Counted from the first letter of the stretch, positions 22,343 through 47,012 are shown. The stretch: DNA of 64,000 nt from Spirochaetota bacterium (GCA_035477215.1 DATIKU010000032.1:1-64000), one strand, 5' to 3'. Notes: generated by a model not told the origin, from the letters alone. Made by a program: numbers and translations.

Positions 22343-23323
22343 GTGAAAAAATACCGGGCGATTTTTATCGGCGCGGGGGTGTTGATCCTCGCCCTGCTCA
22401 TCTACAGTTTCGGCGTGAAAAAAACCATCGACGACATCTTTGCCATGGGATGGCGTTTCTGGATCATCGCAGGGATATTCCTTTTCAACAACATTTTCAT
22501 GACCATCGCCTGGAAGGTTCTCATCAACCACCCGGTCAGGCCGTCATATTATCTTCAGCTTTTCCTCGCACGCGTGGCGGGCGACTCCACCTCGTCCGTT
22601 AACGCAATGGCCTCGGCCGCCGGCGAAGCGCTCAAGGCAATCTATATAAAGGACGCGGTCCCCATCCAGACCGGCCTCGCCTCGGTCGTCCTCGACCGTA
22701 CCATACACATTATCTCGAACGTACTAATGATGCTTACCGGCATCTTTATCAGCTTTTTCGTGCTCAACATTCCCCTGTGGATCTCCGTCTTAACGCTCAC
22801 CGCGTTCATGCTGCTCCTGTATATGATGATGGTAATTTTAAAAAAACAGCGGCAGGGCTTCGTCCGTTATCTCCTGACCCGCATTCCCGTACGCTGGCTC
22901 GATCGTTTCATGAACGAAAAGCGGTGGGAGAAGGTTGATACGCTCGACGGGGATATCTCATTCATCTTCAGCACCGGGAAGACCATGAAATGCTTCTATT
23001 ACTCCCTCGCCATTCATTATCTGTCGGGTTTCTTTTTTTCCAGCCTCGAAATATACCTTATTGTCATCTTCTCGGGGAATTCGATCACCTTCGTACACTC
23101 CATGTTCCTGTATATCTTCAGCATGTTCCTCACCAGCGTCATCTTTTTCATGCCGGCGAACCTCGGCACCAGCGAAGGGTCGTTTTCACTGGCGTTGCAA
23201 TTTCTCGGCTACGATCCGGCGATCGGCCTTACGGTCGGCCTCATCAAGCGCCTGCGCACACTGGTGTGGTCGCTCATCGGCATCATCATTCTGTTTTTCG
23301 CGGGCATGACCAGAAAGAGCTGA
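22343..23323 (+). CDS. lysylphosphatidylglycerol synthase TM region/UPF0104-family membrane protein
   Basis: 326 residues with about eight TM helices. FFMPANLGTSEGSFSLALQ near residue 270 and LDRTIHIISN fit the flippase-like membrane domain shared by MprF and AglD-type proteins. There is no C-terminal aminoacyl-transferase domain. It may move or modify lipids or lipid-linked sugars. The start is GTG. It begins 15 bases after the SpoIIE phosphatase gene and is likely co-transcribed with it. Confidence 0.8.
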   Translation: MKKYRAIFIGAGVLILALLIYSFGVKKTIDDIFAMGWRFWIIAGIFLFNNIFMTIAWKVLINHPVRPSYYLQLFLARVAGDSTSSVNAMASAAGEALKAIYIKDAVPIQTGLASVVLDRTIHIISNVLMMLTGIFISFFVLNIPLWISVLTLTAFMLLLYMMMVILKKQRQGFVRYLLTRIPVRWLDRFMNEKRWEKVDTLDGDISFIFSTGKTMKCFYYSLAIHYLSGFFFSSLEIYLIVIFSGNSITFVHSMFLYIFSMFLTSVIFFMPANLGTSEGSFSLALQFLGYDPAIGLTVGLIKRLRTLVWSLIGIIILFFAGMTRKS

Positions 23324-23964: not shown

Positions 23965-24927
23965 GTGATGACGGGAAGGCGGAACTACCAGATGACAAAG
24001 GAAAGCGGCGGGACTATGGGAATAAAGAGGCTCTATCACCGGCTGCGGGGCACGCCCTTCTATCGGAAAAGGAAAAAGGCCCTCGTGCTCGAAGGCGGGG
24101 GCATGCGCGGGATATTTCTCACGGGCGTGCTGCAGAGCTTCACCGACCGTGGATACTTCCCCTGGAAAATCATTATAGGTTCCTCGGCCGGGGCGCTCAC
24201 GGGCGCGGCCTACGCCGCGCGGCAGATCCATCTTGCCCGCGACGCCTTTTTCACCGAACTTCTGTCCGGACAATTCATCAAACTTTCCAACATCCTTCGC
24301 CCCGAAAAGCACATACTGAACCTGGACTGGATGGTCGACACCATCATACACGGCGCCGAGCCTCTCGACGATCGCGCCCTGTCCCGCGCGTGCCCCGTGC
24401 TCATCACCGCCACCGACTGCCTCCCCGACAATCCCCCGCAGACGCTGTACTTAAGCTCGCGGCGCGACGATATGTCCCTGGCCCTCAAGGCGACCGCCGC
24501 CATACCCGTTCTCTACCGCGGCTTCGTCGAATACGCGAAACACCATCTTCTGGACGGGGGCCTGCTCGATCCGATTCCATACGCCAAGGCGCTGGAGATG
24601 GGGTTCGACGAGGACGAGATACTGGTGGTCGTCACGCGGCGGCGCGGTTATCGCAAGAAGGAGGAGTCGTTCTGGGTCAAGTCCCTTTACGAATCATACT
24701 ACAAAGACCACCGTTACCGCTTTCTCGTCGAGGCGATCAGCAGCAGGTATCTGCTGTACAACAAGGCGCTGGACGAGCTCGAACAGCGGCACCCGGAAAT
24801 CGACGTCATCTATCCCCCGGACAACTTCCGGGTGGACCGGCTCAGCCGTGACGGTAAAAAAATAATGGAAGGCTTCGCGCAGGGCGCCGTGGCCGGAAGG
24901 GACTACCTGCGGCACCTGCGCGGCTGA
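23965..24927 (+). CDS. patatin-like phospholipase
   Basis: Up to 320 residues of the patatin/RssA-type family. EGGGMRGIF (oxyanion-hole glycines), IIGSSAGALTGAAY (nucleophile Ser in G-S-S-A-G) and LLDGGLLDPIP (catalytic Asp in D-G-G) form a complete Ser-Asp dyad. No signal peptide is seen, so it is probably cytoplasmic or membrane-associated, acting on phospholipids or lysophospholipids. Possible starts are the ATGs at 23965, 23992 and 24016; the last gives MGIKRLYHRL and is a plausible shorter form. The gene is convergent with the FecR gene. Confidence 0.88.
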   Translation: MMTGRRNYQMTKESGGTMGIKRLYHRLRGTPFYRKRKKALVLEGGGMRGIFLTGVLQSFTDRGYFPWKIIIGSSAGALTGAAYAARQIHLARDAFFTELLSGQFIKLSNILRPEKHILNLDWMVDTIIHGAEPLDDRALSRACPVLITATDCLPDNPPQTLYLSSRRDDMSLALKATAAIPVLYRGFVEYAKHHLLDGGLLDPIPYAKALEMGFDEDEILVVVTRRRGYRKKEESFWVKSLYESYYKDHRYRFLVEAISSRYLLYNKALDELEQRHPEIDVIYPPDNFRVDRLSRDGKKIMEGFAQGAVAGRDYLRHLRG

Positions 24928-24936
24928 TCCCGGCCT

Positions 24937-25998
24937 TTATTTTTTCGGGGGCTTCGCCGCCTCTTTGTCGATCCCGCCCTTTATCTTTTCCATGCTCTCC
25001 CTGTGTTTGCCCATGATCTCCTCATAGGCCTTGCGGTAGGATTCCCGCACAGCCTGCAGGGCCTCAAAGTTTATGCGATGCTGCTGCGCAACCTTGTTCG
25101 ATTCTTCCTTTATACGATAAAAGGTGTCGTACATTTCCGTCTTGTCTTTCCCGAAGCGATCGAGGATCCCCTCGATGGAGGCCGCCGCACTCTCATTGAG
25201 CAGTGCGTCGTCTTCGAGGTCGCGCTGCAATATCGTAAGCTCTTCTCCGGTCTTTTCGATCTCTTTCTTCCCGACGGGCGCCCTGCCGCCCAGCCGCGAG
25301 TTAAGATCGCCGAGCTTTCCAGACGACCTGGAACTGCGCTCTCCCATGTTGTTGATATAGCCCTCAAAGCGCTTCCCCCGCTCTCCCGGGTCGCGCTCCA
25401 TCTCCCCGTCGCGTTCCGCCTTCCAGGCCGCCATGTCGGCCTCTCCTTCATCGTCGGCCGGAGACTCGGCGAGACCGATTTTCGTCTTCGATGACGGGCC
25501 GAGGTTCTTCCTTCCGTAGGGGTTGCGCACCTCGAGCGCGCCTTCCTTCATTTCGACGCGCGAGTCGGCGCCGTCGCTGACGCCGACCAGAAAGTCCGTA
25601 CCTCGAACCGAACAGACCGTCGTGGGAGTGACCACCTTCCGCTCCGAGCCCCGCGCCAGCTTCTGGAACCGGGCGTTTATCGCCCCCGATATCACCGAAA
25701 CGGAGCCCGAGTCCTTCACAGCAATACTGCCGATCCTCACCCTGCTCTTTTCCATAACGCGTATCTCGCTGCCGTCCCCGTATCCGATGACCGCAATACC
25801 CCCGGCGCCCGTCATGACCATGTCGCCGTCGGCGAGCGACTGGCCCAGGCCCGCGGCCGATGATTTCCCCTGGCGTAAAAGAGATACATCGCCCACAAGG
25901 AATGAAAACTCGAGCGCAAGCGCCCTTTCCGATCCAGCCGCCGTTATAAGCGCCATGAGTATCGCGGCGCACGCGCGCGCCACCGTTATCCTTATCAT
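24937..25998 (-). CDS. FecR-domain exported protein with coiled-coil tail
   Basis: 353 residues. Signal peptide (1-28), then a FecR domain (about 30-170): LADGDMVMTGAGGIAVIGYGDGSEIRV, GSVSVISGAINARF and TPTTVCSVRGTDFLV, the usual stranded core of periplasmic FecR proteins. Residues 190-353 are charged and helical, probably coiled coil. It lacks the TM and anti-sigma N-terminus of E. coli FecR, so it is a periplasmic or envelope protein, not an anti-sigma factor. It is the last gene of the five-gene operon, overlapping the receiver-PP2C gene by 4 bases (ATGA). Confidence 0.82.
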   Translation of the reverse strand: MIRITVARACAAILMALITAAGSERALALEFSFLVGDVSLLRQGKSSAAGLGQSLADGDMVMTGAGGIAVIGYGDGSEIRVMEKSRVRIGSIAVKDSGSVSVISGAINARFQKLARGSERKVVTPTTVCSVRGTDFLVGVSDGADSRVEMKEGALEVRNPYGRKNLGPSSKTKIGLAESPADDEGEADMAAWKAERDGEMERDPGERGKRFEGYINNMGERSSRSSGKLGDLNSRLGGRAPVGKKEIEKTGEELTILQRDLEDDALLNESAAASIEGILDRFGKDKTEMYDTFYRIKEESNKVAQQHRINFEALQAVRESYRKAYEEIMGKHRESMEKIKGGIDKEAAKPPKK

Positions 25999-27221
25999 CC
26001 TTCGTCGTCCTCCTTGTTTTTGTAATTCATGCCGATAAGGGTTATGTCGTCACCGGGACGCTGACTGCCGCTGAATTCCATCACCCTTTCAAATATCGTC
26101 TCGATAAGCTCGTGGATATTCTTATCCATATATTTTTTAAGAAGCTCCAGGAAAACGCCCTGCCCCATTATCCTGTCGCTGGGACCCGTCAGCTCAAAAA
26201 CGCCATCCGTGTAGAAGACAAGCCGGTCACCGCCGCTGATGCTGATGCGTTCGTTCTTGTAGACCGAGTTTTCGAAGATTCCGACGAACGGGCTGTTAGG
26301 GTCGAGAAACGCATAGCTTCCGTCCGCGCGCATAACGGCGGGTGAGGGGATACCCGCGTTACAGTAGGTGAGCGTATCGGCCGCAAGGTCAAAGAGCCCG
26401 TAGAAAATGGTCACATAATTGTAGCTCATCCGCTTCTGTGACCCGATCAGAAACCGGTTGACCTCGCCCATGAACTCGGAAGGAACGGGACTCGAGGTCT
26501 TCACCGAGCTGATGGCGGTTTTCACCATGGCCGAATACAGAGCGGCGGGCACCCCGTGGCCCGATACGTCGGCGAACACGAAGGCGAAAAGGTCTTCATC
26601 GTACTGGATAAAATCGAAAAAATCACCGCTTACCTTTTCCACCGGCCTGAATTTAAGCGCGAGATCGACGCGGTCGAGGTGGGGCAACGCCGCCGGGAAG
26701 AGACAGCGCTGCAGGTTGGCGGCGATATCGAGCTCCTTTTCGATTTCGATGTTCCGCGTCCTTATCTCCTCGTTCAGCGCCTCGAGCTCCTTGTTTTTCT
26801 GCCTGAGCTCTTCCAGAAGCGCGCGATTCTCGAGAACGAGCCGCCGCGCCTCCAGGGCCCTTTTAACCGAAATACCTATCTGCTCGTTCTTGAACGGCTT
26901 GAGGATGAAGTCCGTCGCCCCGCTCTTGAGCGCCGATATGGCGATGTCTATGTCGCCGTAACCTGTTATTAGAATAACCGGAATCCCCGAGTCGACGAGC
27001 TGGACCCTGTTGAGGAACTCGATCCCGTCCATGCCCGGTAGATTGACGTCGGCGATGATCACATCAACCATAGAGAGATTCTCCGAGCGAAGGGCCTCCT
27101 CCGCGCTCTCGTACCCTCTCGCACTGTACTCCTTCCGGAGGATGCGGTAGATGAGGTCGTTTACGAGCTTGTCATCGTCGATGACCACCACGTTCGCTTT
27201 CACGCTGGCTGTGTCGCTCAA
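25995..27221 (-). CDS. response regulator with SpoIIE/PP2C output domain
   Basis: 408 residues. Receiver domain (about 10-125): acidic pocket IDDDK, phospho-acceptor Asp in IIADVNLPG (about 58), Thr in LITGYGD and Lys in LKPFKN, all present. A coiled coil (about 130-180) leads to a PP2C domain (about 190-400) with VSGDFFDF, FADVSGHGVPAALY, FYTDGVFEL and GDDITLIG. This is the RssB/RsbU-like class, in which a sensor kinase controls a phosphatase acting on an anti-anti-sigma protein. No kinase or target is in the operon, but the gene is coupled by 4-base overlaps to the giant lipoprotein upstream and the FecR gene downstream. Confidence 0.92.
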   Translation of the reverse strand: MSDTASVKANVVVIDDDKLVNDLIYRILRKEYSARGYESAEEALRSENLSMVDVIIADVNLPGMDGIEFLNRVQLVDSGIPVILITGYGDIDIAISALKSGATDFILKPFKNEQIGISVKRALEARRLVLENRALLEELRQKNKELEALNEEIRTRNIEIEKELDIAANLQRCLFPAALPHLDRVDLALKFRPVEKVSGDFFDFIQYDEDLFAFVFADVSGHGVPAALYSAMVKTAISSVKTSSPVPSEFMGEVNRFLIGSQKRMSYNYVTIFYGLFDLAADTLTYCNAGIPSPAVMRADGSYAFLDPNSPFVGIFENSVYKNERISISGGDRLVFYTDGVFELTGPSDRIMGQGVFLELLKKYMDKNIHELIETIFERVMEFSGSQRPGDDITLIGMNYKNKEDDEG

Positions 27222-30200
27222 GGCTTTATCCTCCCGTCATCCAGCGCGTTCAGGTACAGCCGTATGCCGGCCCAGTAGGCCGGATGGCTGAACTGTCTCC
27301 TCGAGCGAACGCCCTGCTTGGCCCGTTCGAACGCCACGACGACTTCGGTCCCCGCTGCGAGCTCGCGATAAAAAATATCGACGAAAACCGCGTTGTTGAC
27401 ATCGTGCACCGCGGCGTCGTTAATTACCAGCGCCCGCGCACCGCGCATTGACGCGTACAGCGCAAACTCCGAATGTCCCACGGCCCCGAACGCGTCGCCT
27501 GACGGCAGATAAATGATAGAGCCCCCCTTTACGACGTCTGGGTACGCGTTCCCTCCGAGTGAGAGCGCCCCTGTCATCGGGTTGTACGCAAGCTCCGCCA
27601 TGAAATGTCCCACGCCCGACCGGAGCGCCGTCTCGGCGCCCCAGGCTATCCCGGACTGGCGCAGCGCCACGCGTTCAATCTCATGATACAACGGGCCCCG
27701 TGGCCCTCCCACCAGGCTCACCCTCGGCCGGATGGCTTCGTAGTCCCGCAGGGCGGAGATGATGGAGGAGCAATACGCCACCCGGTGGGACTCGTCGAGC
27801 AGCTCCTTCTCTCCGGTTATTTCGAACGGCACCTGTTCGAGTTCATTGTCGACGATGAAAACGACCGACTCCCTCCCGCGGTAATAATTCTCAAATGGCT
27901 TCAAGAGCGCCGCCAGGTCGCGCGAAATGGGCGCAACGCTTCCAAAGGCCCCGATCGCCTCACGGTAGCGCTCCGTTAGGAGGAGCGCGCGATCGTAACC
28001 ATCCTTAATGCGTACGGGCTCGATAAACTGCCGCGCGATGGTCCATCCGAGTATATCTTTCCCGTTTTTAACCAGGTAAATCACGACCGCCGTATCGGGA
28101 ATCCTGCGCTGGAAAGCCTCTATGGGGACCACGCCGGCGATCGCTCCCGCCTGCAGGGCCGGACGGGCATTCAGAAGCTGGATAAAGCGATCCCGTCCGG
28201 ATATTCTGTCCCGTATACCCCTAAACTCGGCCGCCGCCTCGCGCTGAATACCCGAAGCGATACCGGGGAAACGCGAGCGGAGCCGGAGCTGCTTCTTCGT
28301 CTCCGCGTAGACGAGCGCGGAGAGATAATCGCGGCGGCTCATCCTGTATGAAATCATAAAATCGAGGCTCTGCTCCACCAGGTCAATCCTGTTGAATGCC
28401 GAAAGAACATCCGCCGACTCGTCGAACGCATGGAGCCCGACTGCCACGCGCGACTCGACCCTCAGCCATTCCTCCTCGGACGCGTCCTTTTTTTTCAAAA
28501 TTCTCGCAAGTTCCAGCCGCGCGCCGAGCAGCTCGAGAACGTAGCGGAATCCGGCCGGCGCCTCGCCCAATGATGACGCGCGGGCCGAGGCCTCGTCGAA
28601 CCGTCCCAGCGAAATCTCGTTCTCGAGGAGCAGCAGCTCGAGAGGAAAGAAGAGCGGGAGTGTGGCCTCCAGAAGCGCCCTTCCGGTCTTCGCCGATTCA
28701 TACGAAGCGTGATAGCGCCCGGCCCTGAGCAGCTCCATGCCATAAGCATACTGGTACGCCGCCCTGAACGCCGGGACCTCCCTGCTTTTCGTCGATTCGT
28801 TCACCGCGCCGAGGATCGTGAGCGCGTCTCCGTGGCGTCGCTCGGCCCTGCTTAATCCGTAAAGCTTCATTAAGAGCGGCGCCGAGTCCATCCAGAATCC
28901 CCCCGCCGCCAAGCCGTCAAGGTCTATCGTACTTGTGAAGGCATGAATACCCGAAAATCTTTCAGCTTTCATGAAGCGGTCTATAACAATAGCGACCGGG
29001 AAAGTGGAGAGCGCATCGAATCGCCCGTTTTCTTCCAGCAGGGGGGCGGCCTTCGGCCTGACGAGGTCGCCATCCTTCTCGGCAAAGAGTGCCATGATGC
29101 CGGAAAATCGGCGCGGGAGGCCCCTGGCTTCCCGCGTTCCTCCTCCAAGAAACGCGATCTTGCACATCTCGCGCGGCGAGAAAGGTGTACCGGCACCCAT
29201 GCCGGATACGATGCTTCGCGCATCGGACTCTCTACCGCTCATATACAGGTATTCGGCAAGGAGCAGTCGCAGCCGGTCGACAGGCACAAGCGAACCGCTC
29301 CCTGTCAGCGACGCCTGCAGTGCATCATGTGTTGGCGTGCCTCCTCTGGCAATATCAGCGGCGAGGGCGAGCGCCCGGTATTCGGCGGTTTGCGTGGCGC
29401 CCTGTTTCATGCGGCGCTCGATAATTTCGACCGCCTCCCCGGCGGCCCCCCCGTAGAGCAGCAGGTAGGCCTTATAGGCCATGGCCCTTTCGATCAATTC
29501 GTCCACGGTCGGGCTCTTTGCCGCAAGCGCCCGGTTTATCATGGTCGCCGCCGTCCCATGATCGTCGGCGAGGAGCGCGAGCTCGGCCGAATGAAGCGCG
29601 TACAGCGCGGGCGCGTTTGCATCACCGCGCACGCTGTCGTTCCAGCGATCGAGGAGCGCCCGCGCATGGGCGGCATCGCCGCGCCGGAATTCCTCGACGA
29701 ACATGGCATACAGCGAGTCATCCGACCGTTTGCCGGTCTCCGAAATATCGATGGCACTCCCGGCCTCCCCCAGCGCCAACGCGATTCCCGACGGGCCGCC
29801 GATATCGGCGTTCAGCCGGTCGCGCGGCGCCTCGAGAGTACGCCCTACAAGCTTTGCCATATCCTCCATGCCGAGGCCGTGGCTGACAACGACCGATCGC
29901 GCCCCCGCATACCGTGCCGCTTCGAACGCGAGCGCGATGCGCTCTTCATTAAATTGTTCCATATTCAACACGAGAACCTCGGCGCCCAGACGGTTGCCAA
30001 ACAGCGCCGCGGGAGAAAGCGGACCTTCCTCTTCGCCCTGGTCCACCAGCACCGAGAAGCGCGCGAGCTCCGCACCCGGAGGGGCTCCGTCGCGCATGAC
30101 CATCCGGGCGAGCGCCGGGATTTCCTGTAATTTCTCCCGCAGTTTCGGATCGGGGGTGTACAGGCTCGTGAAGGGGGAACCGCGCCGTTCGCCCCCGCGG

Positions 30201-33200
30201 GCAATATCATCGAGCGAAGTTGCGAACATGAACGGCGGAAAACCGGAAGGCCCGAGAAGCCGAAACAGCTCCGCGGCAGTATTGTCGAACACCACGAAGC
30301 GCGGCCCGGACTCTTCGCCCGCTTCCGAAAGGAAGTGTTTCAGTCCTGTTCGAAGCCGTTCACGCCCGTCTTTGTCCGCATTTCCGATCATCCGGAATTC
30401 GACATTCTTCCCTCTGAGGCGCCAGCCGTAAACCGAACCACCGGCGAATAAAAACCTGAACGCCGTGGAGGCTTTTATTTCGGGAAGCGGTTTTCTCTGG
30501 TGGCGCAGGAACGAAGCGAAAACCGGTCGCTGTTTTTCCAGTCCGTCAACGAGTCTGGCGAACTCCCGGTCATTGTCCGCAATCGATTTTCCGACCGCCG
30601 CCATGTCCTCGGGAGAGCGTGCCGCGGCCTCGAGCAGGCCGGAGCGCTTTTCGGCCAGAGCGGCGCGCGAGGCCGAGAGGGTCATGGCACGCCGGTAGGC
30701 CAGCGAATCGTCCCTGTCATAGAACTCGGGCGAGGCGGCCCGTACAATTAGAATGCGTTCCGTCGCCCGTTTCCTCTCGAGGACTGACAGCGCCCCTCGC
30801 GCATCACCGCGAAGCGCGAGCAGTCCCGCAAAATCATCGTACAGGCGCGTCACCCTCCCGATTTCACCGGAGTGCGGCAGCGGACGGGCTTCGAGCGAAT
30901 CCAGGGCACGGCGATATCGCTCAATGGCGGATTCCGCGGCGCGGACTCCCTCGAGTGACGCGCCGCTTTGACGCAAAAAGCCCGCGATCGTACCGTCAAT
31001 CACCCACAACAGATCATCGTATTCGAACTTACGCGCGGCCGCCTCCGCGTTCATGAAGGCCTCGTACGCCTCATCGATCATGCCCAGACGCGCCCTGCAC
31101 CGAGCGGCGTTGAGCAGTAGTCTGACAGAGAGCCTGCGCGAAGGCTCTTTGGCGGCCCGCTCGAGCGCGGTGGTAAATCCGGCCTCCGCCTGCGAATATA
31201 AACGATAAATTTCACTCTCCCTGTCGAACTCACGGCGGGCCGTCCCGGGCCGGTCGGCTCCGCGGCCGGCCTCAATGCCAGCCAGGAGTTCCGCCTTGTA
31301 AAACCGGAGCACGGACAGGGCCACGTCGACATCGTAGTGGACCCCGGCGGTTTCCCCCGCCACCTTTATTCGCAGCGACCGGACTTCCTCCTCGGTATGC
31401 TTGCGCCGCAGTACCTTCGCGTCGGCCTCAAGCCGCGCCATCGCCGACTCGAGGCGCCTCTTCTCGTATCCATTCCTGAACGCCGAGATACGTTCGACGA
31501 GGACGTCAATATCGGAAACGGGCTCCCTGAGATACAGTGCGTTTTCGGCCAGATAGGCGTAGAGGATGGAAAGGTTGATGATCGCGATAAACGCGCCCTC
31601 AAGGTCGTTTACCTTCGGGTCGGCCGCCAGGTCCCACGCGCGCGCGAACGCAGCGCGCGCCGCGCCGTACTCATGAAGGAGAAACCGGCAGTACCCTATG
31701 TTATTGACCGTCCGTATCCGCGTCTCGTTGTCCACCCTTCCCGAGCGTTTGCCGAGCAATTCGAGTTTCCGCTCCAGAAAGCGTATCGACGCCCGGTATT
31801 CGCCCATCCCGTAGTACGCCTCCTCCTGGAGGGAGAGGTTGAGAAGGCGCTTGCTCATGGTGTCGAGTTCGGTGAAGATGCGGTTTTCGCCGATGACGGC
31901 GACATCGCTGCCGAGGTTCCACAGCGGTATCGGGCCGAGGCCCAGAATCTTGACTTTAAGGTAGTATTTACGCTCATCGTCGGTGTATCGTTTCAGCAGC
32001 GAATCGGCCAATCCGAGATACGAAAGCGCCGTTTCGGTATCGCCCAGCTCCCGGTGGCAGTAGGCGATCTCCTGCAGGTAGCGCGCCCTGTCGATTTTAA
32101 TACGGTTGGCCGCTGCAAAGTCGAGCACCTTGTTGAACCAGGCAATGGCGTCCTCGTGGCTATTCTCCATTCTGGAAAGCAGCCCGAAGAAGCGGTAGAG
32201 GTCAAGTATCTGCTGTTTGTACCGGCGAATGTTCCTGCCCGACGCCATGGTCTGGTATACGTTAAGGGTCTTGTTCATCTCCTCCCTGGCCCGGCCGTAA
32301 CGGCCGTCCTGCCAGTAACAGTAGCCCAGGTGGTAGTAGAAGAGCGCCTCCTCGATTCGAGAACCGAAGCTCCGCTTGAAACGCGCGGCGTGCTCGTAGT
32401 GCCAGAGCGCGCGCGGGTAATTGTTCAACAGAAAATAGGTGTTGGCGATGTTAAGATGCAGGTTGCCTTCCTTCCCCGGGTTTTTTGTCTCGTCGTTTAT
32501 CTCCAGAGCCTTCTCGTACATCCGGATGTTGCTCTCCCATAAATAACGGGGGAAAAAGCGCGCAAAGATCGATTCATTCCTGCCACCGGTATCCTCGAGG
32601 TCGTCCCTGCGCCGCAGGTCCACATACTGCGAAATCCATCCCTTCAGCATGTACGGATCGACGAAGGTGTCGTCGATGAAGAGCGCCCAGTCGAGCTCGT
32701 CGATGCATTTCCGGAAGCTTCCGAGCAGCGCCTCGCGGTCTCCCGCCCGTTCCAACGCCACGCCCTTCTTCGCGTAGATGTATCCGAGCCCATAGATATG
32801 CGCCTTGTCAAAGTCCATGCGCGCGATGGGCAGACGCTCCAGGTATTCCCCTTCGAGACCGTCAAGCGCCCGCGCGTCGCCCCCCTTCCAGTCCGAAAAT
32901 GCGTCAATATACAGCACGTGGGCGCGCGCGCCGTACTCGTTGTAGATGTCCTCGAAACGTTTCTTCAGGTGCAGGTAAGTCAGAAGCCACACATATTTTT
33001 TATAGAGCGCGACGGCCCCGGTATAATCGCCCGCAAGCTCCGCGCGTTCGCCGTATTCCTCGTAATAATCGATGAGCTTCATTACGATCGCGGGAAAATC
33101 CCGCTGCTTCCATAGAAGAAGATAGTTGTTCGCCGCCGCGGAATAAAACGCCTCGCGCTCCCTGAAGTTTCGCTCCGCGCCGGCGATATCTCCCAGCAGG

Positions 33201-35095
33201 ATATTGCTCAGGTAATAGACTATATCGTTCTTCCTGACGATCTTAAGCGACTCCTGAAGCTGGCGCCTCGCCGCCGGCATATCGCCAAGGTCGAAGTGCG
33301 CCTTCCCGATGACGTATAAAAGCAGTCCCGGAAGAAGTTTGTTATCCCGATACCCGACCATCATGTTCCTGGCGGCGGCGAGGCGCTTCCCCGCGTCCGC
33401 CTCCCCGTCAAAGAGCTCGAGGATGCGAATCATCGTGTCGTTACGAAGATAGATGAAGCTCGAATCGAGCACCGCGATAAATGACGGGTGAATCCCGTCG
33501 GCAAGCCGTGTGGACTCGAGCGCGGCGAGTTTGTAGCGAACGTAAAAAGCCCTGCCGTAGTCGGCATGGTTTCTCAAAATATCTCGATAAACCCCGGCCG
33601 CGGCCGAACGGTTTCCCGAACGCACGTGTTCATCGGCCAGGTCCTCCTTCAGATAGGGGATGATGGCCGCCCTGCCCGGCTCGGCCGCCATTCCCGCGAG
33701 GGATTCGGCGATGATACGCTCCCCCGGCCTGCCGTAAAAACGCTCGCCGATGTAACGTCCGAGCACCGTCCGATAGTCGTTCCTGTCGGCGGAGAACGAA
33801 ACGAGGAGCTTCTGCAAACGCGCCGCCTCGGCGGTACGGCCCATGCTGTGGTTTAGCCTCGCCGCCTCGGCGATTGCGCGTGCGGTGAACGCGATCGATT
33901 CCGCGTCCTTCGCCGCGCCGAAGAAATGATACACCCGTTCCAGCGCGAGGAGGTAGCGGTCGGTATCATCGAACTCCTGGAGGTATTTCTCGGCAAGTTC
34001 GTACTGGCGGCGCGCGTTCTCCCGTTTCGGGATCATTCCGTCATCGGGAATTATGTTGATGTTGATATTGCTTCCGACCTGATCGGAAAACACGATAATA
34101 CCGTCAAAGGCCGGCGACCAGCGCGGAGAGAACGAGGACTGTGAATACAGCGTAAGTGGATATTCCAGACCGTTTGCGAGGTTTTTATACCGGATGACCG
34201 AATTGTCCTTCAGATCGAGCTTGCCATCGCCGTTGGTGTCCCGGTCGATGAGCGTGTAGACGATCTCATCGGTCCCGCGGAGAAAGGTCGGGTGCATCTC
34301 GATCCCCGGCCCCGTGGTAAGCTTCTTTTCGGCCCCGGACGCGAGGTCGATCGTATAGACGTCGCCGCCCGAGCCCGCGTCCCTGTACGAGACGAAGATG
34401 ATCCTCTTTCCCTCTCGTGAAAAACGGGGATGCGCGCCGCCGTCGCGGGTGATCTGCCGCAGGGCGCGTCCCTTTCGATCCATCACCCATATGTTTTCGG
34501 CGCCGCCGCGCGCGGAGGAAAAGGCAACGAGCTTTCCATCGGGCGACCAGCAGGGCGAATCGTCCTTCAGGGAGCGGATTGTGCCCGTCGACGGTTCCTG
34601 GTACTGGGTGAGATTGACGGCCTCCGCCGGGGGGCCGATGGCACGCCAGGTGGACGAGCGGGCTCTTTTGATCAATGCGGCGGGGTCCACGCGCATGAGA
34701 TAGATGTCGCCTTCCGGATCCTCTCGCTCTGAAACGAAGGCGAGATGCTTCCCATCCGGTGAGATCGCCGGAGACGAGTCTCTCGATGGATGATCGGTGA
34801 TCCGTACGGTGGTGATGTCGGCAAGCGAGCGCAGATAGATATCGAGGTTGCCGCGCTCCCGGTCGGAAGCGAAAAAGAAAAAAAGCCCGTCGGGCGTAAA
34901 CACCCCTCCAATCTCAACGGACTGTTCTATGGTGACCGGCACCACCCTGCCGACGTCATAGCGGTATTCCTTTCTCAGGATTTTACCGTAACTGAACAGC
35001 ACCTCGTTCCTGGACGCGTCCTCGCAGGCGGCAAGGGACAGGGAGGCCGCGGCGAGGACCGCGGGGATGCTTCGGCGCAGAAATAGGGCATTCAT
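27218..35095 (-). CDS. giant lipoprotein: TolB-like propeller, TPR tract, two pseudo-CHAT domains
   Basis: 2625 residues in one frame. A signal peptide ends in a good lipobox (SLAAC, Cys 24). Residues about 45-350 are TolB/PD40-type propeller blades (SPDGKHLAFVSERE, SPDGKLVAFSSARG, FSREGKRIIFVSYRD). Residues about 370-1500 and 1800-2300 are helical TPR-like repeats (LHLNIANTYFLLNNYPRALWHYEHA). A first CHAT-like caspase fold lies at about 1540-1760 and a second at about 2320-2620. The catalytic Cys segment, normally LSAC in CHAT proteases, reads VVVSHG and VINDAA, with no Cys-His pair, so both look non-catalytic. Probably a surface or periplasmic scaffold. Both ends overlap operon neighbours by 4 bases. 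Confidence 0.85.
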   Translation of the reverse strand: MNALFLRRSIPAVLAAASLSLAACEDASRNEVLFSYGKILRKEYRYDVGRVVPVTIEQSVEIGGVFTPDGLFFFFASDRERGNLDIYLRSLADITTVRITDHPSRDSSPAISPDGKHLAFVSEREDPEGDIYLMRVDPAALIKRARSSTWRAIGPPAEAVNLTQYQEPSTGTIRSLKDDSPCWSPDGKLVAFSSARGGAENIWVMDRKGRALRQITRDGGAHPRFSREGKRIIFVSYRDAGSGGDVYTIDLASGAEKKLTTGPGIEMHPTFLRGTDEIVYTLIDRDTNGDGKLDLKDNSVIRYKNLANGLEYPLTLYSQSSFSPRWSPAFDGIIVFSDQVGSNININIIPDDGMIPKRENARRQYELAEKYLQEFDDTDRYLLALERVYHFFGAAKDAESIAFTARAIAEAARLNHSMGRTAEAARLQKLLVSFSADRNDYRTVLGRYIGERFYGRPGERIIAESLAGMAAEPGRAAIIPYLKEDLADEHVRSGNRSAAAGVYRDILRNHADYGRAFYVRYKLAALESTRLADGIHPSFIAVLDSSFIYLRNDTMIRILELFDGEADAGKRLAAARNMMVGYRDNKLLPGLLLYVIGKAHFDLGDMPAARRQLQESLKIVRKNDIVYYLSNILLGDIAGAERNFREREAFYSAAANNYLLLWKQRDFPAIVMKLIDYYEEYGERAELAGDYTGAVALYKKYVWLLTYLHLKKRFEDIYNEYGARAHVLYIDAFSDWKGGDARALDGLEGEYLERLPIARMDFDKAHIYGLGYIYAKKGVALERAGDREALLGSFRKCIDELDWALFIDDTFVDPYMLKGWISQYVDLRRRDDLEDTGGRNESIFARFFPRYLWESNIRMYEKALEINDETKNPGKEGNLHLNIANTYFLLNNYPRALWHYEHAARFKRSFGSRIEEALFYYHLGYCYWQDGRYGRAREEMNKTLNVYQTMASGRNIRRYKQQILDLYRFFGLLSRMENSHEDAIAWFNKVLDFAAANRIKIDRARYLQEIAYCHRELGDTETALSYLGLADSLLKRYTDDERKYYLKVKILGLGPIPLWNLGSDVAVIGENRIFTELDTMSKRLLNLSLQEEAYYGMGEYRASIRFLERKLELLGKRSGRVDNETRIRTVNNIGYCRFLLHEYGAARAAFARAWDLAADPKVNDLEGAFIAIINLSILYAYLAENALYLREPVSDIDVLVERISAFRNGYEKRRLESAMARLEADAKVLRRKHTEEEVRSLRIKVAGETAGVHYDVDVALSVLRFYKAELLAGIEAGRGADRPGTARREFDRESEIYRLYSQAEAGFTTALERAAKEPSRRLSVRLLLNAARCRARLGMIDEAYEAFMNAEAAARKFEYDDLLWVIDGTIAGFLRQSGASLEGVRAAESAIERYRRALDSLEARPLPHSGEIGRVTRLYDDFAGLLALRGDARGALSVLERKRATERILIVRAASPEFYDRDDSLAYRRAMTLSASRAALAEKRSGLLEAAARSPEDMAAVGKSIADNDREFARLVDGLEKQRPVFASFLRHQRKPLPEIKASTAFRFLFAGGSVYGWRLRGKNVEFRMIGNADKDGRERLRTGLKHFLSEAGEESGPRFVVFDNTAAELFRLLGPSGFPPFMFATSLDDIARGGERRGSPFTSLYTPDPKLREKLQEIPALARMVMRDGAPPGAELARFSVLVDQGEEEGPLSPAALFGNRLGAEVLVLNMEQFNEERIALAFEAARYAGARSVVVSHGLGMEDMAKLVGRTLEAPRDRLNADIGGPSGIALALGEAGSAIDISETGKRSDDSLYAMFVEEFRRGDAAHARALLDRWNDSVRGDANAPALYALHSAELALLADDHGTAATMINRALAAKSPTVDELIERAMAYKAYLLLYGGAAGEAVEIIERRMKQGATQTAEYRALALAADIARGGTPTHDALQASLTGSGSLVPVDRLRLLLAEYLYMSGRESDARSIVSGMGAGTPFSPREMCKIAFLGGGTREARGLPRRFSGIMALFAEKDGDLVRPKAAPLLEENGRFDALSTFPVAIVIDRFMKAERFSGIHAFTSTIDLDGLAAGGFWMDSAPLLMKLYGLSRAERRHGDALTILGAVNESTKSREVPAFRAAYQYAYGMELLRAGRYHASYESAKTGRALLEATLPLFFPLELLLLENEISLGRFDEASARASSLGEAPAGFRYVLELLGARLELARILKKKDASEEEWLRVESRVAVGLHAFDESADVLSAFNRIDLVEQSLDFMISYRMSRRDYLSALVYAETKKQLRLRSRFPGIASGIQREAAAEFRGIRDRISGRDRFIQLLNARPALQAGAIAGVVPIEAFQRRIPDTAVVIYLVKNGKDILGWTIARQFIEPVRIKDGYDRALLLTERYREAIGAFGSVAPISRDLAALLKPFENYYRGRESVVFIVDNELEQVPFEITGEKELLDESHRVAYCSSIISALRDYEAIRPRVSLVGGPRGPLYHEIERVALRQSGIAWGAETALRSGVGHFMAELAYNPMTGALSLGGNAYPDVVKGGSIIYLPSGDAFGAVGHSEFALYASMRGARALVINDAAVHDVNNAVFVDIFYRELAAGTEVVVAFERAKQGVRSRRQFSHPAYWAGIRLYLNALDDGRIKP

Positions 35096-35709
35096 TTTTT
35101 ACGAACCCATTTGCCCGTTCTATCCTGGACCCAGTCGTTCCTCTTCGCGAGCGCCGCCTGCTCTTCGGCGAAGGCGGCGCCGAAGGCCGCCACATCGCCG
35201 GTGGCAGGCCCTCCCGGCCCCGTACGCGCCACGCTCCGCTCGAAGATCACCCTCCTCGCAGCGTTCTCGTCCTCGAGCACCCGCACGAGGGCCGCTTTGA
35301 GCGCGGCGTCCGAGTCGTACTTTTTCTGTGGCATATAAACCGCCATCCCGCTGTTCGCCTCCCCGACGGCACCATCGTCCTTATACGTGCGGATCTTCTC
35401 CTCGTTGAACTCCCGTATCTTCACGGCCCCCAGAAGCGCCGCGTCGCCCCCCATCACCACGGCCGGGCCGCGCGAGCGCGCCACGTCGGTCTTCACCGAC
35501 GATATGATCCACGCGTCGCGTTCGAGCTCGCGGTAATCGCCCACGATCTGCCGCTCGATGACGGTCTTTTCCCCGGTGAGGTGTATATCCGGGGGCGATA
35601 TCTCCAGGCAGCTGGGCATGTCCGCCAGACAGCTTTTGCCGCTCGCGCACCTCGAAAGCGCCGTCAAAAGCACCGCAACCGCCGCGAGCAGACACAGGCG
35701 CGTATTCAT
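35092..35709 (-). CDS. DUF1318 (YdbL-like) lipoprotein with YnbE-like N-terminus
   Basis: 205 residues. A signal peptide leads to a Cys (LSRCASG), a loose spirochaetal lipobox. EISPPDIHLTGEKTVIERQ (about 40-58) resembles the short YnbE lipoprotein. The rest, ending RNDWVQDRTGKWVRKK, fits DUF1318/YdbL. In E. coli the ydbH-ynbE-ydbL operon encodes an AsmA-like lipid-transport bridge with an outer-membrane lipoprotein partner. Here the two small partners appear fused into one lipoprotein directly behind an AsmA-like gene. The assignment rests on motif memory and context, not on alignment. It is coupled by ATGA overlaps on both sides. Confidence 0.65.
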   Translation of the reverse strand: MNTRLCLLAAVAVLLTALSRCASGKSCLADMPSCLEISPPDIHLTGEKTVIERQIVGDYRELERDAWIISSVKTDVARSRGPAVVMGGDAALLGAVKIREFNEEKIRTYKDDGAVGEANSGMAVYMPQKKYDSDAALKAALVRVLEDENAARRVIFERSVARTGPGGPATGDVAAFGAAFAEEQAALAKRNDWVQDRTGKWVRKK

Positions 35710-38597
35710 CGCTCCACCTCCCCGACCTTTCGAAGATATTCCTGTATGGGCATCCGGTCGAATTCCACCTTCTCGTCCTTCACCCCGAAGAGATATCCGA
35801 TCGCCCTGCGGGAGAACGTCACCGTGGCGTATACCAGCCCCCTGTCGAGGTTGAAATTGAAGCCCTTCACGTTCATCGAGTTGTCCACCGCGAACTGAGC
35901 GACACCCCCGAGCTTTGAAGTGCCCTTTTCCGTCGACAGCCCCTTGAGCAGGCCCCTGGCGAACTTCTCGCCGATCTTGTGAATGTTGACGTAGCCCTGC
36001 GCCGAAAGTTCCCGCTCTATATCGACGCCCCTGCCGACGAAATTCGCGTTAAGCGATAGCTCGGCGTCGCGCCTTTTTTCCCGCGAATCGGGATCGTCGA
36101 GCCTGCCGATGTCCACGTTGGTGACGTCGAGGGCCACGCGGAACTCCATGTTCCGCGGTTTCATATCGGCGAGGTTGAACAGGATGTCACGCCCGTACAG
36201 CGAACCGTCCAGCACGTATGCGCGCATCGCCGGTATCTCGAAGGTGTTTTCCCGGAAGGCCATTGTGGCGGAAAAATCCTTCAGATACTCGAATGAAACG
36301 TCCCTGGCCGGATGTTTTGCGCGTATCGATTTTATCGTGAAGTTCGCCTTCTCCCTGAAATATTCGTTGGAGATGAGAAGGCTTTTGTCGGTCGCTATGC
36401 GCGATTCGCCACGGTAGCGCGGCGTAAAATAATAGTCGAAGGGGAAGTCCATGTTCAGGTCGTCGACAGCGATGCGCTCCTCGTCGTTTTGCACAAAAAA
36501 CCGGCCAATCTTAATCGACCCGAAGGCCCTGCCGTTCTTTAAATCGCCTCTGACGGCGGCGCCGATATCAACCAGCCCTTTGATCTTCCATGGGCCATAC
36601 ACCGCCGCGAGTTCCGGTGCTTTCAGTTTTATGCCCAGCCTCAGGTCGGAATCCGAGAACGGCGGCGTCTCGATATCGACGGTTCCGCGCGCATCGATGT
36701 CGAGACCCTTCGCCTCGCTTCCGAGATGAAACCTGGAGAGCGTCAGGCGCTTTCGCGTGCCGTCCTGCGCGAGGTCCACATCGAGCCGCAGGTCGGTAAG
36801 ATCAAAATCGGGCGCGATGAGCTTCATAACGGCAGCCGCGTTCGTCTTCTCCCCCTTTATGCCGAACGACGCGTCAAGCGAGAGGTCGAGCGGTTTTGTA
36901 AGCGGAAGCCCGTCGAGCGATTTCCTGAGAGAGGCCGGAAGCATAGCCATAAGCGGCGCCTTCCGGAATCGGAACCTGTCGACATTGAGCTTCCCGGCCG
37001 GTGCGGCGCCCAGCGAGGCCTCGGCCGTCGCGCCGACTTCCAGGGCGTTCTGCCCGTCGGCCGGATTGAAAAACCTGAAAGAGAATGACTGGAGTTTCAC
37101 CCGGCCGAAGTTACCCGGCGCTGACGCGTCCATTGCCATCTCAACGCCGTTGTCGCCCGATTTGCTCCTCTCGAGCGCGTAGGAAAAGCGCGGGACGGCG
37201 AGCCTGGCAAGCAGCTTTATATCGTCGGCGCGCCGCAGGGCCGTAAAACCCAGCCGCGCGTGGGGCAGCGCGGCCTCGATCCCCGGCATTTTATACGTAA
37301 TTTCCCGCAGAGCGAGTTCGCCGTTTACGTCCATGGACGAGGGATTCCCTTTTATCGTCAGCGGATAGAGCGAAATGACACCGCCGAAGCGCGTCAGCCG
37401 GTCGCCGGTTATCGCCGCATAGTACGGATACAGCTCGTCGAGAGCGATCGCGCTGTGCGTCATCCTGATGTCGATCTCCTGCCGGGTGGTGACGTTGCGC
37501 ACAGTCCCCGCAAGATTCAGCCAGGTACTGCCTGCAAAGCGGACGCTGAAGTGGTCGAGCCTGAGATTGTCGACCGCCGGATCGTATACCATGTCATAAC
37601 CGATCATCAGGGAGAGCGGCGCGAGCCGGGAGCGCTTGAAGCGCACGGGGGTCCTGTTGGTGCCGAACCGGAATGCACTCGCGAACGAATTATTGCCTGC
37701 CTTCCCCTTGTTAAAGTCGAACTTCCAAGACAACACCAGCGGCGGATTCACCTCGACGTCGGGCGTATACACGGAAACATCGAGCTCGCCTTTCGGATTG
37801 AGCGCAATCGACATCCGCTCCAGGAGCGCGACCGCCTCAGGGGATTTCGGCACCTTTCTGAACGGCGGCACAAGGATATCGGCGGTAAAGCCGAGCCCCT
37901 CGACCGAGGCGTTCAGTCCGGTGCCGCGGGCATAGAGCCGAAAATCCTCGATCACGAATTTAAAGAGAAAGTCGAGGGAAATCGGAAGGCCGATCTCCTT
38001 CGAGGGGCCGACCCCTTCCTCTTTCTTCTCCTCTTTTTGTTCTTTCCCCGGTTTTTCGGCCGAAGCCTTCATCAGGCGTTCGGCGTTCCAGACGCCGTTT
38101 TTCTCGATAAGGTGAATGCGGGGGCGGTAGATGCCGATCTCGTTGAAGCGCACCCTGCCGACAAGCATGCCGAAAAATCCGTAATCGAACACAAGGCGTT
38201 CGATCTCCACGAACTTCGACCGGCCGAATTCCTCTCCGTTGTAGATGACGAGGTTCTCGATTTCAAAACCACGGTAAGGGTTAAACCGTTTAACCTTCAT
38301 GGATAGCTCGCCGTACGAGGCCAAGCGGAACGCCTCGGCGGCGATGGTTTCGACGCGCTTCGGCGAGAGGACCAGCGGAAGGGCCGCCATGATCACGACC
38401 ACCAGCCCCGCGACCGCCAGGGGAACCCAGATTACAATTATTTTCGCCGCCGTCTTTACCGCGCCGGTCCCGCCGGCAGGCGCGCGGGGAGGACTCTCGT
38501 TATTCGCTGTCCCGCCCGCCATCGGATTTAGTCCGTCGTCAGCGGGCCGCTTCGCGTTTATTTTCTTTTTTATCATGCCGATCACAGCCGATGCCAC
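35706..38597 (-). CDS. AsmA-like/DUF748 envelope protein, putative lipid-transport bridge
   Basis: 963 residues. A 50-residue basic, disordered cytoplasmic tail is followed by one TM helix (about 52-75, IIVIWVPLAVAGLVVVIMAALPLVL). A very long beta-rich periplasmic region then carries the AsmA-like pattern: GELSMKVKRFNPYRGFEIENLVIYNG near the start, LDIDARGTVDIETPPFSDSDL in the middle, and at the end DIERELSAQGYVNIHKIGEKFA and the amphipathic NVKGFNFNLDRGL. AsmA/TamB/YdbH proteins form grooved beta sheets that carry phospholipids between membranes. The long frame starts with GTG at 38597; an ATG at 38576 is an alternative. It is the first gene of the five-gene coupled operon. Confidence 0.8.
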   Translation of the reverse strand: MASAVIGMIKKKINAKRPADDGLNPMAGGTANNESPPRAPAGGTGAVKTAAKIIVIWVPLAVAGLVVVIMAALPLVLSPKRVETIAAEAFRLASYGELSMKVKRFNPYRGFEIENLVIYNGEEFGRSKFVEIERLVFDYGFFGMLVGRVRFNEIGIYRPRIHLIEKNGVWNAERLMKASAEKPGKEQKEEKKEEGVGPSKEIGLPISLDFLFKFVIEDFRLYARGTGLNASVEGLGFTADILVPPFRKVPKSPEAVALLERMSIALNPKGELDVSVYTPDVEVNPPLVLSWKFDFNKGKAGNNSFASAFRFGTNRTPVRFKRSRLAPLSLMIGYDMVYDPAVDNLRLDHFSVRFAGSTWLNLAGTVRNVTTRQEIDIRMTHSAIALDELYPYYAAITGDRLTRFGGVISLYPLTIKGNPSSMDVNGELALREITYKMPGIEAALPHARLGFTALRRADDIKLLARLAVPRFSYALERSKSGDNGVEMAMDASAPGNFGRVKLQSFSFRFFNPADGQNALEVGATAEASLGAAPAGKLNVDRFRFRKAPLMAMLPASLRKSLDGLPLTKPLDLSLDASFGIKGEKTNAAAVMKLIAPDFDLTDLRLDVDLAQDGTRKRLTLSRFHLGSEAKGLDIDARGTVDIETPPFSDSDLRLGIKLKAPELAAVYGPWKIKGLVDIGAAVRGDLKNGRAFGSIKIGRFFVQNDEERIAVDDLNMDFPFDYYFTPRYRGESRIATDKSLLISNEYFREKANFTIKSIRAKHPARDVSFEYLKDFSATMAFRENTFEIPAMRAYVLDGSLYGRDILFNLADMKPRNMEFRVALDVTNVDIGRLDDPDSREKRRDAELSLNANFVGRGVDIERELSAQGYVNIHKIGEKFARGLLKGLSTEKGTSKLGGVAQFAVDNSMNVKGFNFNLDRGLVYATVTFSRRAIGYLFGVKDEKVEFDRMPIQEYLRKVGEVER

Positions 38598-38703: not shown

Positions 38704-41700
38704 TCAGCTCCCGTTTTCCATCCTGCTCAGAAGCGAGCGCCTCCCGGATTCGGGCTCCACGAGCGACGACACCGCCGGGTCTTCCCTGAGGCGAAGGACG
38801 TTCAGCATGAAGATGTCGAGCTTGTTGACGATGGAAGGCGGCAACAGGTTTCCGTCGATCTCGACCGACATCATGGGATAGTGCCGCTCCCGGGCCCACG
38901 GGGTGAGTATCCCCTCGATCACGCGCCCGATCAGGCAGGCGAAGGGCGCTATGTTCACGACCCCCGAGTACCCGTCCATCATTGCCGTCGCCGCCACGCC
39001 GCTCGAGACGCTTATCTCGGAATGGAGCTCGTCGCTGACGAAGTATTTTTCGGCGTTTTCCATTATTCGATCCATGTCGTGCGGCGTCTCGGGCACAAGG
39101 CCCGTTTTTTTGAGCACGGACCCCACCTTGTGCTCCACGCGGTGCTTGTACATCTCCTCGAGCTTCCAGGCGACGAGCTCGCGCAGTTCCTTCGAGAACG
39201 GCCGCCGGTACCACGGCAGGAGCCCGTATCGCTTCCTGATCTCGTGGCGGCGCGTGTAGTCGCAATAATAGACCCACTCCGTAATCCCGGAAACCTTGCC
39301 GATGATTCCGCGCGAGCTGAAATGCTGGATGAGCTCGTCCACCGCGAAGTCGTCGCGCCGAACAAATATCTCGCCCACGATCAACACCCGCGGGCACTCG
39401 TCGATCGTGCGTTTGAGCGGGATGCGCGCGATCTCCGCGGCGATCGCGTCAAGTGCGGGAAGCACCCGGGCAACGTCATTCTCGGCGACCGAGATGAGCC
39501 GGTGCCACAGCTCGTCGTATTTCCGCATCGCCTCCACGGGATCCTCCGCGCAGGCCCGTAGAGAGGTCTCCACGTCCTTCATGTAGTCGCTGATGACAAG
39601 CCCCCACCACGCGTGCTTCGAGAAGTCCGGACCCAGATCGTTGTACGAGTTGTCGGAATCGAGCGTGATGACCACCACGTTGTCCAGACGAAGGTCCTTG
39701 AAGAGGTTCTCGTAGAAGACGAAATACTGCCCGGTACGGCAGGGGCCCGTGGTCGTCGGGACGAAAAGCAGGTAGATCTCGTCCTTGCGGTAGCTTTCCG
39801 AGCCGAAAAAGCGCAGCGCCTCGCCGAGCACCAGGTGGGAGGGCAGACACTCCTTGCCCGAGGCGTGATTGCGCGCCAGCTGCAGCGTCGGCGTGTCGGC
39901 GAGCGGCATGGCCTCGGCGCTTATTCCCGTCGAGCGGAGCGACGCGGCCAGGAGCTCCGTGGAGAGACGGCCCATGTTGGCCAGGAGAAGTCTTATGCGC
40001 GGGTTGCCCCTCAGCGGCATCCTCTCACCGGTCGAAAGACGCTTCACGTAGAGGCCGTCCCTCTCCACGATGAAGCGCAGTCCGTTGTCGAAGCGCTCGG
40101 AGGCTATCTCAGTAAACTTGCTGCGATAGCCCTCGATGATATCGAGGAAAGCCTCGACGCGCGTATCGACGCCCGCATCGGCCGTGTGCGAATCGAGCTC
40201 GAGCACCAGGAAGGGCTTGGTGCCCATGTTCCACCTGAGGTAATGCAGCATGAACGAATCGGGCGCGCACGAAAAGTTCGTGATATACGTGACGAAGATG
40301 TTGTCCTCGTTTTTAACGAGCTTGCTCGCCTTCATATTCTGCTGGCCGTAATACCAGTACATGTTCGCGAAGATGTCCTCGCTCTCGAAGGGCAGGATGT
40401 CGAAGGGGATGATGGTACAGCCGCGCGAGGTGAACTTGCGCGGGATCCCCATGTTCGCGTCGGGGGTGAACGCGTTGTAAGGCCTGCCGAGAAGCGCGAT
40501 GACCGGCCGCTTCGAGCGTCGCGCCTCGTCAAGCGCCTCGCGTCCGAGGGATGCCGCCTTCTCCGCGTATTCACGCTGTTTCCCCAGCGCCGCTGCGAAC
40601 GCCGCGCGCACCTCTTTTTCATCGAAACCGAGCGCTTCTCCAAGCGGGATGAACGGCTCGATCGCCTTCTCCTCTCCGTATTTGAAACTCACCACCGGGG
40701 AGAGGACGCGCGCGTCGGAAATCTCCGGAAAGGCCTGGCGGATATAATACGGCAGTCCCTGCGTGATGGGGCAGAAGTTGGCGTGGACGTCGCTTTCGTA
40801 GCTCTCCATGTCCCGGAAGTGCGGCAGGAACAGGAAGTCGGGCCGCGCGTCGAACGCGGCCTGCACGGCGCCGTGGGCGATTTCGGCCGGGTAGCAGTAT
40901 CCGCTCTCAACCCTCGCCACTCCGCACGCTGAGATCTCGCTCGAGAGCACCGAGCGCGCGCCGAGTTCGTGGAAGAAGTGCGAGTAGAACGGCCACAGGG
41001 TATAGACAGAGAGGCAGCGCGGGATGCCAACGGTGTACTCGCTGCGCTTTCGAAGCGTTGCCGGATCGGGCGCGCATTCCACGAACATGAGGTCGTTTCG
41101 GCGCTCGATGTAGTCGGTCACCGCGGATTCGTCGAAGGTCTTCTTCTTTCGGATGTTTGCGTACTTGTTGCACCGCCCGCCGAACATGTGTCGATGGCCG
41201 TTGACGACGAGCACCCTGATGGGACAGTAATTGTCGCACGCCTTGCACTGGAATTCCCGCTCGTTCACGATCTCGGTGGCGAGGATCGCGTCCAGATCGT
41301 AGCTCCCCTTTTCGAGGAAGCCATCTGAAAGCTTCTGCGCCGCGAGCAGTCCCACGCCGAAGCACCCCATGAGCTCGGGGTCCGGCGGCACGAGGATGTT
41401 TTTACCCAGGAGCATCGCGAAGGCCAGCGGCACAGCCTCGTTCTTGGCCACACCGCCCTGCAGCACGATGCTGTTTCCGATGGTGCGGTTGCCCACCACC
41501 CGGTTGAGATAATTCGATACGATCGAGGTCACGAGCCCGGCCGTTATGTCCTCGCGCGAGGCCCCCTGCTGTATCGCCTTTCGGATATCCGAGTTGATGA
41601 AGGCCGAGCAGTGCTCGCCGAACTTGAGGGGCCGCTCGGCCGTCAGCGCGACCGGCGCGATCTCGTGCGCGTGCTCGATATTCAGGTCCCCCCTGCACGA

Positions 41701-43867: not shown

Positions 43868-44019
43868 CAACCGACCCTCCCGTATAACTACCGCGAACGC
43901 ACACCTTGCATGATAGCAGTGTGCGCGTATGCGTCAAGAGATTTCCAACAGCGTTTTTCTGCTTGATTCCCCCCTTCCCCGGGTCAACACTGCGTGGAAA
44001 TTCATACTGGAGACTGAGA

Positions 44020-45497: not shown

Positions 45498-45590
45498 GGC
45501 GCGCATGTCGTGGTGAAAAATCCTTGCCATAACGCCCGGCCGTGGTAGCATTGCTCGGCGCCATCACCCCCGCCCCCCGGAGACACCGGC

Positions 45591-46961: not shown

Positions 46962-46983
46962 TCCAATACACTTCCCCGGGCTG

Positions 46984-47012
46984 GGAATTTCCATGAATAT
47001 CAGGGAAATTCC
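46984..47012. repeat. 9-bp inverted repeat between the MFS and PiT genes
   Basis: GGAATTTCC, 11 bases, then GGAAATTCC: perfect complementarity. No T-tract follows. It could be a transcript-end hairpin of the MFS gene or an operator or insertion-boundary site for the AT-richer DNA that begins just after it. The remaining part of the 277-base gap (47013-47238) is AT-rich with no convincing gene. Confidence 0.45.

Follow-up and report, generated by a model that had tools for sequence, protein, structure and literature searches.

AsmA-family bridges are only starting to be studied in spirochaetes. In E. coli, YdbH and the lipoprotein YnbE are held to help phospholipids reach the outer membrane (PMC11784454; PMC12977461), while how glycolipids reach the spirochaete outer membrane is unknown according to a recent review (PMC11784454). 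Here we describe a locus at positions 24937-38597 of a 64,000-nucleotide stretch from a Spirochaetota bacterium (GCA_035477215.1 DATIKU010000032.1:1-64000; hereafter the window), whose first three genes encode an AsmA-like protein, a DUF1318 lipoprotein and a giant lipoprotein. This trio is no artefact and is a conserved three-gene envelope module. On a narrow balance we favor the view that its products form a three-protein bridge from inner to outer membrane, which many spirochaetes use instead of TamB.

E. coli ydbL adjoins ydbH-ynbE, and the trio repeats this order of AsmA-type gene, lipoprotein and DUF1318 domain, with an overlap at the AsmA/lipoprotein junction and a DUF1318 domain that matches the YdbL crystal structure. 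It differs in that this domain is built into the lipoprotein, whereas YdbL is a separate protein, in the addition of the giant lipoprotein, and in the N-terminal segment of gene 2, which is not detectably YnbE. The likeness to YdbH-YnbE-YdbL proposed earlier from the sequence of the window alone (the sequence-only reading) holds for gene order and for the YdbL fold, but homology to YdbH and YnbE is not detectable. The AsmA-like protein also resembles TamB, being by its model a long inner-membrane-anchored beta-groove of the AsmA superfamily, and the trio and TamB are distributed in a complementary manner among spirochaetes; the trio has lipoprotein partners, whereas the translocation and assembly module (TAM) has an Omp85 barrel. 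Lastly, the protein matches the model of the LIC_11026 family (NF047499), which is named from Leptospira and has no function assigned. NCBIfam names only the AsmA-like protein of this family, and the papers searched gave no link to DUF1318 or giant proteins. Nor did the literature searched describe the trio, which as far as that literature shows is new as a set.

A conserved three-gene core

The locus contains five open reading frames (ORFs), all on the minus strand, as the sequence-only reading had reported (lengths in amino acids, aa):

35706..38597, minus: core gene 1, AsmA-like protein, 963 aa, LIC_11026 family (ORF, NF047499, AlphaFold, Foldseek)
35092..35709, minus: core gene 2, DUF1318 lipoprotein, 205 aa (PF07027 above cut-off, Cys21 nearly invariant)
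27218..35095, minus: core gene 3, giant lipoprotein, 2625 aa, with propeller, TPR array and degenerate CHAT
25995..27221, minus: accessory gene, receiver and SpoIIE-type PP2C phosphatase, 408 aa, TTG start (Pfam)
24937..25998, minus: accessory gene, secreted FecR-domain protein, 353 aa (FecR E=2e-11)

All four junctions had been given as ATGA. There is indeed a 4-base overlap at 4/4, reading ATGA at three (35709-35706, 35095-35092 and 25998-25995), but the giant/PP2C junction (27221-27218) reads TTGA, with the TTG start of the PP2C gene. Because 4-base overlaps are frequent in bacterial operons, the overlaps by themselves are weak evidence; it is the conservation of gene order, not overlap, that is strong evidence for the locus.

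We compared the 46 genomes of the window's class and 296 genomes of Spirochaetota; co-occurrence and exclusion counts are raw, uncorrected for phylogeny. The order AsmA>DUF1318>giant was found in every class locus where the contig allows, with neighboring core genes overlapping by as much as 19 bases or separated by up to 26. Of the 46 class genomes, 36 carry both the giant and the AsmA-like gene, and the other 10, spread over three families, carry neither. Across the phylum, the AsmA-like gene was detected in 109 genomes (NF047499 matches), the DUF1318 lipoprotein in 104 (profile of the lipoprotein) and the giant in 104 (profile of its TPR part), and 96 genomes carry all three; pairwise overlaps of 97-103 genomes were observed compared to about 37-38 expected. 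Several genomes that seem to break this pattern are incomplete or encode a divergent giant, such as genome G101, which has no match to the TPR profile yet encodes a 2,633-aa propeller protein directly after DUF1318. The gene order, seen by the sequence-only reading in this one strain, thus recurs outside it, across the class and beyond in family f34 and much of f11. In family f15 (many species, 2-3.4 Mb genomes), the AsmA and DUF1318 genes are adjacent and a propeller lipoprotein of ~2,340 aa is encoded elsewhere, and in family f22 all three core genes lie apart, with DUF1318 elsewhere in the genome. Such co-retention without linkage is stronger evidence of shared function than an operon. What is conserved is therefore a core of three genes and not, as had been proposed, one five-gene system, the PP2C and FecR genes being absent from many lineages.

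Two observations from this survey concern individual genomes. In G026, masked N bases create a spurious giant of 11,060 aa. In f22 and f41 (loci L118, L119, L120, L121 and L122), a protein of ~500-530 aa follows the AsmA gene, directly or one gene later. The genes after AsmA in f22 were considered as divergent DUF1318 genes and rejected, and DUF1318 sits elsewhere there; three of the proteins were examined (L118, L120, L122) and had no Pfam match. The ~500-530-aa protein is a possible replacement partner.

Near-exclusion of TamB

TamB (PF04357) was detected in 166 of the 296 genomes, 23 of which also carry the AsmA-like gene, 22 of these in f15. Outside f15, the AsmA-like gene is present in 83 genomes, TamB in 141 and both in a single one. 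No PF04357 match was obtained in the window genome (G000) at E<=1e-5, nor in any core-carrying class genome, and TamB is carried by two f7 genomes, in the window's order, that come from a genus without the trio. Because the distributions are complementary, they suggest that the trio takes TamB's place. The result names a three-gene candidate, in the lineage of Leptospira (LIC_11026 family), that almost never occurs with TamB outside one family.

The AsmA-like protein

38370..38462, minus: predicted transmembrane helix, AsmA-like residues 46-76 (model secondary structure)

The AsmA-like protein matched NF047499 with E=9e-95 and 318.5 bits, just under the curated cut-off of 325, which 42 of the 109 matched genomes exceed. 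Its matches to AsmA (E=4e-4) and DUF748 (E=4e-6) both fall below the Pfam cut-offs; among 43 relatives, Pfam matches were found in 27/43 for AsmA and 31/43 for DUF748. The nearest relatives align from the ATG at 38576, so this codon, rather than the GTG at 38597, may be the start.

An AlphaFold model built with 43 sequences had a predicted local distance difference test (pLDDT) value of 83.5. After the transmembrane helix, it contains an amphipathic helix (residues 79-93) and then beta strands to the C-terminus that form a long groove; the AsmA groove expected from the sequence is thus present in the model, together with a membrane anchor. Only two PDB entries were matched by Foldseek with E<0.001, LPD-3 (1.4e-4) and ApoB-100 (3.8e-4); LPD-3 is a lipid-transfer bridge, and the best PDB matches of the groove are lipid-carrying proteins. 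A search by sequence with the AsmA profile gave no PDB relatives. The model supports a groove-type fold only, with no close fold match. Taken together, the predicted anchor, the groove and the sequence match fit a member of the AsmA superfamily of the bridge-like lipid transfer type, which would move lipid. Orthology to YdbH was considered and rejected at the sequence level, with an hhalign probability of 3.2% against 8 YdbH-position proteins.

The DUF1318 lipoprotein

35482..35607, minus: conserved N-terminal segment of gene 2, PPxIxLTGEKTxIERQIxGxYxELEKDAW
35098..35400, minus: YdbL-type (DUF1318) domain of gene 2 (PF07027, 28oj, YdbL comparison)

The DUF1318 domain matched 28oj, the crystal structure of E. 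coli YdbL, both by sequence (E=1.3e-4; 95.8% vs YdbL) and by structure (E=6e-5, template modelling (TM) score 0.87 by target). The model is mostly of high confidence at residues ~90-205, and the DUF1318 fold anticipated from the sequence is borne out by it. A second phylum now links this little-understood domain to a groove protein. Residues 23-86 were poorly predicted in the monomer model, where the N-terminal segment is disordered, though part of this region is strongly conserved. Because it is conserved yet poorly predicted alone, we infer that it may fold on a partner, and it is a candidate groove-docking strand.

Gene 2 directly follows the AsmA gene and encodes a lipoprotein, in which Cys21 is nearly invariant. 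Profile comparison gave no support to the description of this protein as YnbE-like. A YnbE-YdbL fusion is at most conjectural: the motif resembles YnbE by eye, but hhalign with 8 Proteobacteria YnbE sequences was not significant.

The giant lipoprotein

34046..34978, minus: TolB-like PD40 beta-propeller, giant residues ~40-350 (PF07676 E=5e-25)
30716..33958, minus: TPR array, giant residues ~380-1460 (Pfam, class alignment)
27221..28378, minus: C-terminal degenerate CHAT region, giant residues 2240-2625 (Pfam CHAT at 2549-2611)

Most members of the giant family have a signal sequence and a lipobox-type cysteine, the latter absent in four class members. The propeller, which matches the TolB model with E=5.5e-31, under that model's cut-off, is best conserved together with part of the TPR region, where residues 801-900 reach 59% mean identity, the highest of any stretch; the C-terminal half is variable and is missing or shorter in some genera. 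CHAT was matched by Pfam in 17/21 members. At the motifs where the catalytic His and Cys would be expected, the class alignment shows no conserved pair. The sequence-only reading had called this protein a pseudo-CHAT lipoprotein, which agrees with a lipoprotein in most genomes and a degenerate CHAT. It is best read as a putative scaffold with a dead protease-like module.

Like TPR-CHAT proteases, the giant has a TPR array followed by a CHAT-type C-terminus, but it bears an export signal and has no conserved catalytic His/Cys pair. Its propeller and TPR parts also weakly match PorE/PorW of the type IX secretion system (T9SS) and CHU_0125 (E 7e-7 to 2e-3); in contrast to these, the giant lacks an OmpA-like match, is huge, carries the degenerate CHAT and scores far under the curated cut-offs. 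We know of no counterpart to this scaffold in any described AsmA-family pathway, and this giant uncharacterized lipoprotein is a possible missing component.

A first CHAT copy at residues 1470-1840 was rejected: Pfam did not match CHAT there, and the profile of this region did not significantly match that of the C-terminal CHAT. An f18 homologue has two CHAT-like stretches, and a CHAT duplication is possible from its sequence.

A putative bridge between the membranes

Gene order, phylum-wide co-retention, the modelled folds, the YdbL fold match and the near-exclusion of TamB are what the data show of the core. In the mechanism that we favor, the AsmA-like protein would be anchored in the inner membrane with its beta-groove crossing the periplasm, and lipid would slide along the hydrophobic channel of the groove, a lipid-bridge job proposed by analogy with YdbH-YnbE. 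The DUF1318 lipoprotein, probably anchored in the outer membrane, would dock on the distal end of the groove through its conserved N-terminal segment, and its YdbL-type domain may help assembly. The giant may be a periplasmic scaffold that places the bridge at the outer membrane; its propeller and TPR array would offer binding surfaces, and its catalytically dead CHAT would be a structural or binding module. Physical interaction, the lipid cargo, the outer-membrane location of the lipoproteins and the role of the giant are what we infer here. The fuller proposal, that many spirochaetes have replaced TamB by a bridge with a YdbL-type lipoprotein as its outer end and with assembly depending on an inactive-protease scaffold of ~2,600 aa, is more tentative, and we hold it at somewhat less than even odds.

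Several points weigh against this bridge. First, lipid transport and interaction within the trio are read from genes and models, and the Foldseek TM-scores of the AsmA-like model are low (0.13-0.17 by query), which may be expected for long curved grooves. Second, the exclusion of TamB is weaker at the family level, with 3 families shared of 16 and 30 compared to 8.9 expected (P=5e-4, family total taken as 54); f15 mostly has both the AsmA-like gene and TamB, and 44 of the 296 genomes have neither. Third, the class also has AsmA proteins of smaller size, about 500 and 700 aa, both where the trio is present and where it is absent, so the trio holds the long AsmA-type bridge candidate and not the sole AsmA protein of the class. 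Lastly, the cargo may be something other than lipid, given that TamB has a role in the assembly of outer-membrane proteins as well.

The last point leads to the main rival, which we consider unlikely but the strongest of the alternatives: the trio would be a device for assembling outer-membrane proteins or lipoproteins, with the groove shielding beta-strands or acyl chains. Its distribution, complementary to that of TamB, would fit such a device, as would the presence of lipoproteins as two of its three members, and there is a proposed precedent in Borrelia, where TamB reportedly associates with BamA and has been suggested to take part in barrel assembly (PMC13382580). However, the E. coli DUF1318 partner, YdbL, belongs to the YdbH lipid-bridge operon and not to TAM, and no Omp85 gene was recognized beside the loci examined, in which no systematic Omp85 search was made.

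Accessory PP2C and FecR genes

The PP2C protein contains a receiver domain (REC, residues 11-115, Pfam E=3e-24) and a SpoIIE domain (residues 209-398, E=5.5e-41), and its motifs ADVNLPG, DVSGHG, TDG and GDD are intact in sequence. In the FecR protein, the FecR domain (residues 61-155) comes immediately after a signal peptide and precedes a probable coiled coil; by sequence and Pfam the protein has no cytoplasmic anti-sigma N-terminus with transmembrane helix, as in the plan of FecR sigma regulators, and it partially matches the Leptospira Lsa33/LipL45 models, below cut-off.

Past the giant gene, 25 informative class loci have both genes in 11 cases, FecR only in 6, PP2C only in 2 and neither in 6, where ordinary downstream genes are found (PP-loop, HD domain, CoA transferase). 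Junctions to these genes range from -4 to +187 bases, one or both genes often being missing, and in loci beyond the class the core mostly stands without either gene. The PP2C and FecR genes are lineage-specific extras, which may act as regulatory or envelope add-ons. In a few other lineages too, genes of the PP2C type are found close to the AsmA or DUF1318 gene, so a regulatory link is possible in some lineages, but this proximity may be due to chance.

The sequence-only reading had suggested a five-part, phosphatase-controlled complex for envelope stress sensing, with the receiver-PP2C and FecR proteins as integral parts. Overlapping junctions in the window's genus, the presence of both genes in 11/25 class loci, SpoIIE-type genes that closely precede the unlinked DUF1318 gene of an f22 genome (L141) and a response-regulator-type match that adjoins AsmA in L124 are consistent with it. 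However, one or both genes are absent from 14/25 class loci, most loci beyond the class have neither, several SpoIIE-type proteins are encoded near these loci so that chance adjacency is likely, and a cytoplasmic phosphatase cannot directly contact periplasmic parts. We regard such a complex as very unlikely, and phosphatase control as lineage-local at best. It is just as improbable that gene order and co-occurrence reflect only the shared ancestry of three unrelated envelope functions: presence follows taxonomic families and the uncorrected statistics count here against the bridge too, but the 10 class genomes without the AsmA-like gene are also those without the giant gene and come from three families, and all three genes are retained in families where they are unlinked.

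Further genes of these types were observed. In L141:1-6456 (f22), the unlinked DUF1318 gene comes shortly after two SpoIIE-type genes (frames of 590 and 1,088 aa), and in L148:1901-2842 (f18) a FecR-domain protein gene lies three genes downstream of DUF1318, with the giant on another contig. Another SpoIIE-type PP2C phosphatase, which carries two GAF domains, is encoded in the window (20558-22327, plus), adjoining a gene for a lysylphosphatidylglycerol-synthase-type membrane protein (22343-23323).

Neighboring genes

An ORF of 484 aa without Pfam match lies at 45542-46996 (plus), and a patatin-like phospholipase gene (23965-24927, plus) is convergent with the FecR gene, with 10 bases between their ends. 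Upstream of the operon by 106 bases is a gene for a 1,436-aa CoA-enzyme activase (BcrAD/DUF2229; 38704-43014, minus), preceded by a Methylase_S gene (type I restriction specificity-type domain; 43076-43870, minus). The activase gene is upstream in the loci of families f1 and f6, and is downstream and convergent in L045 and L048.

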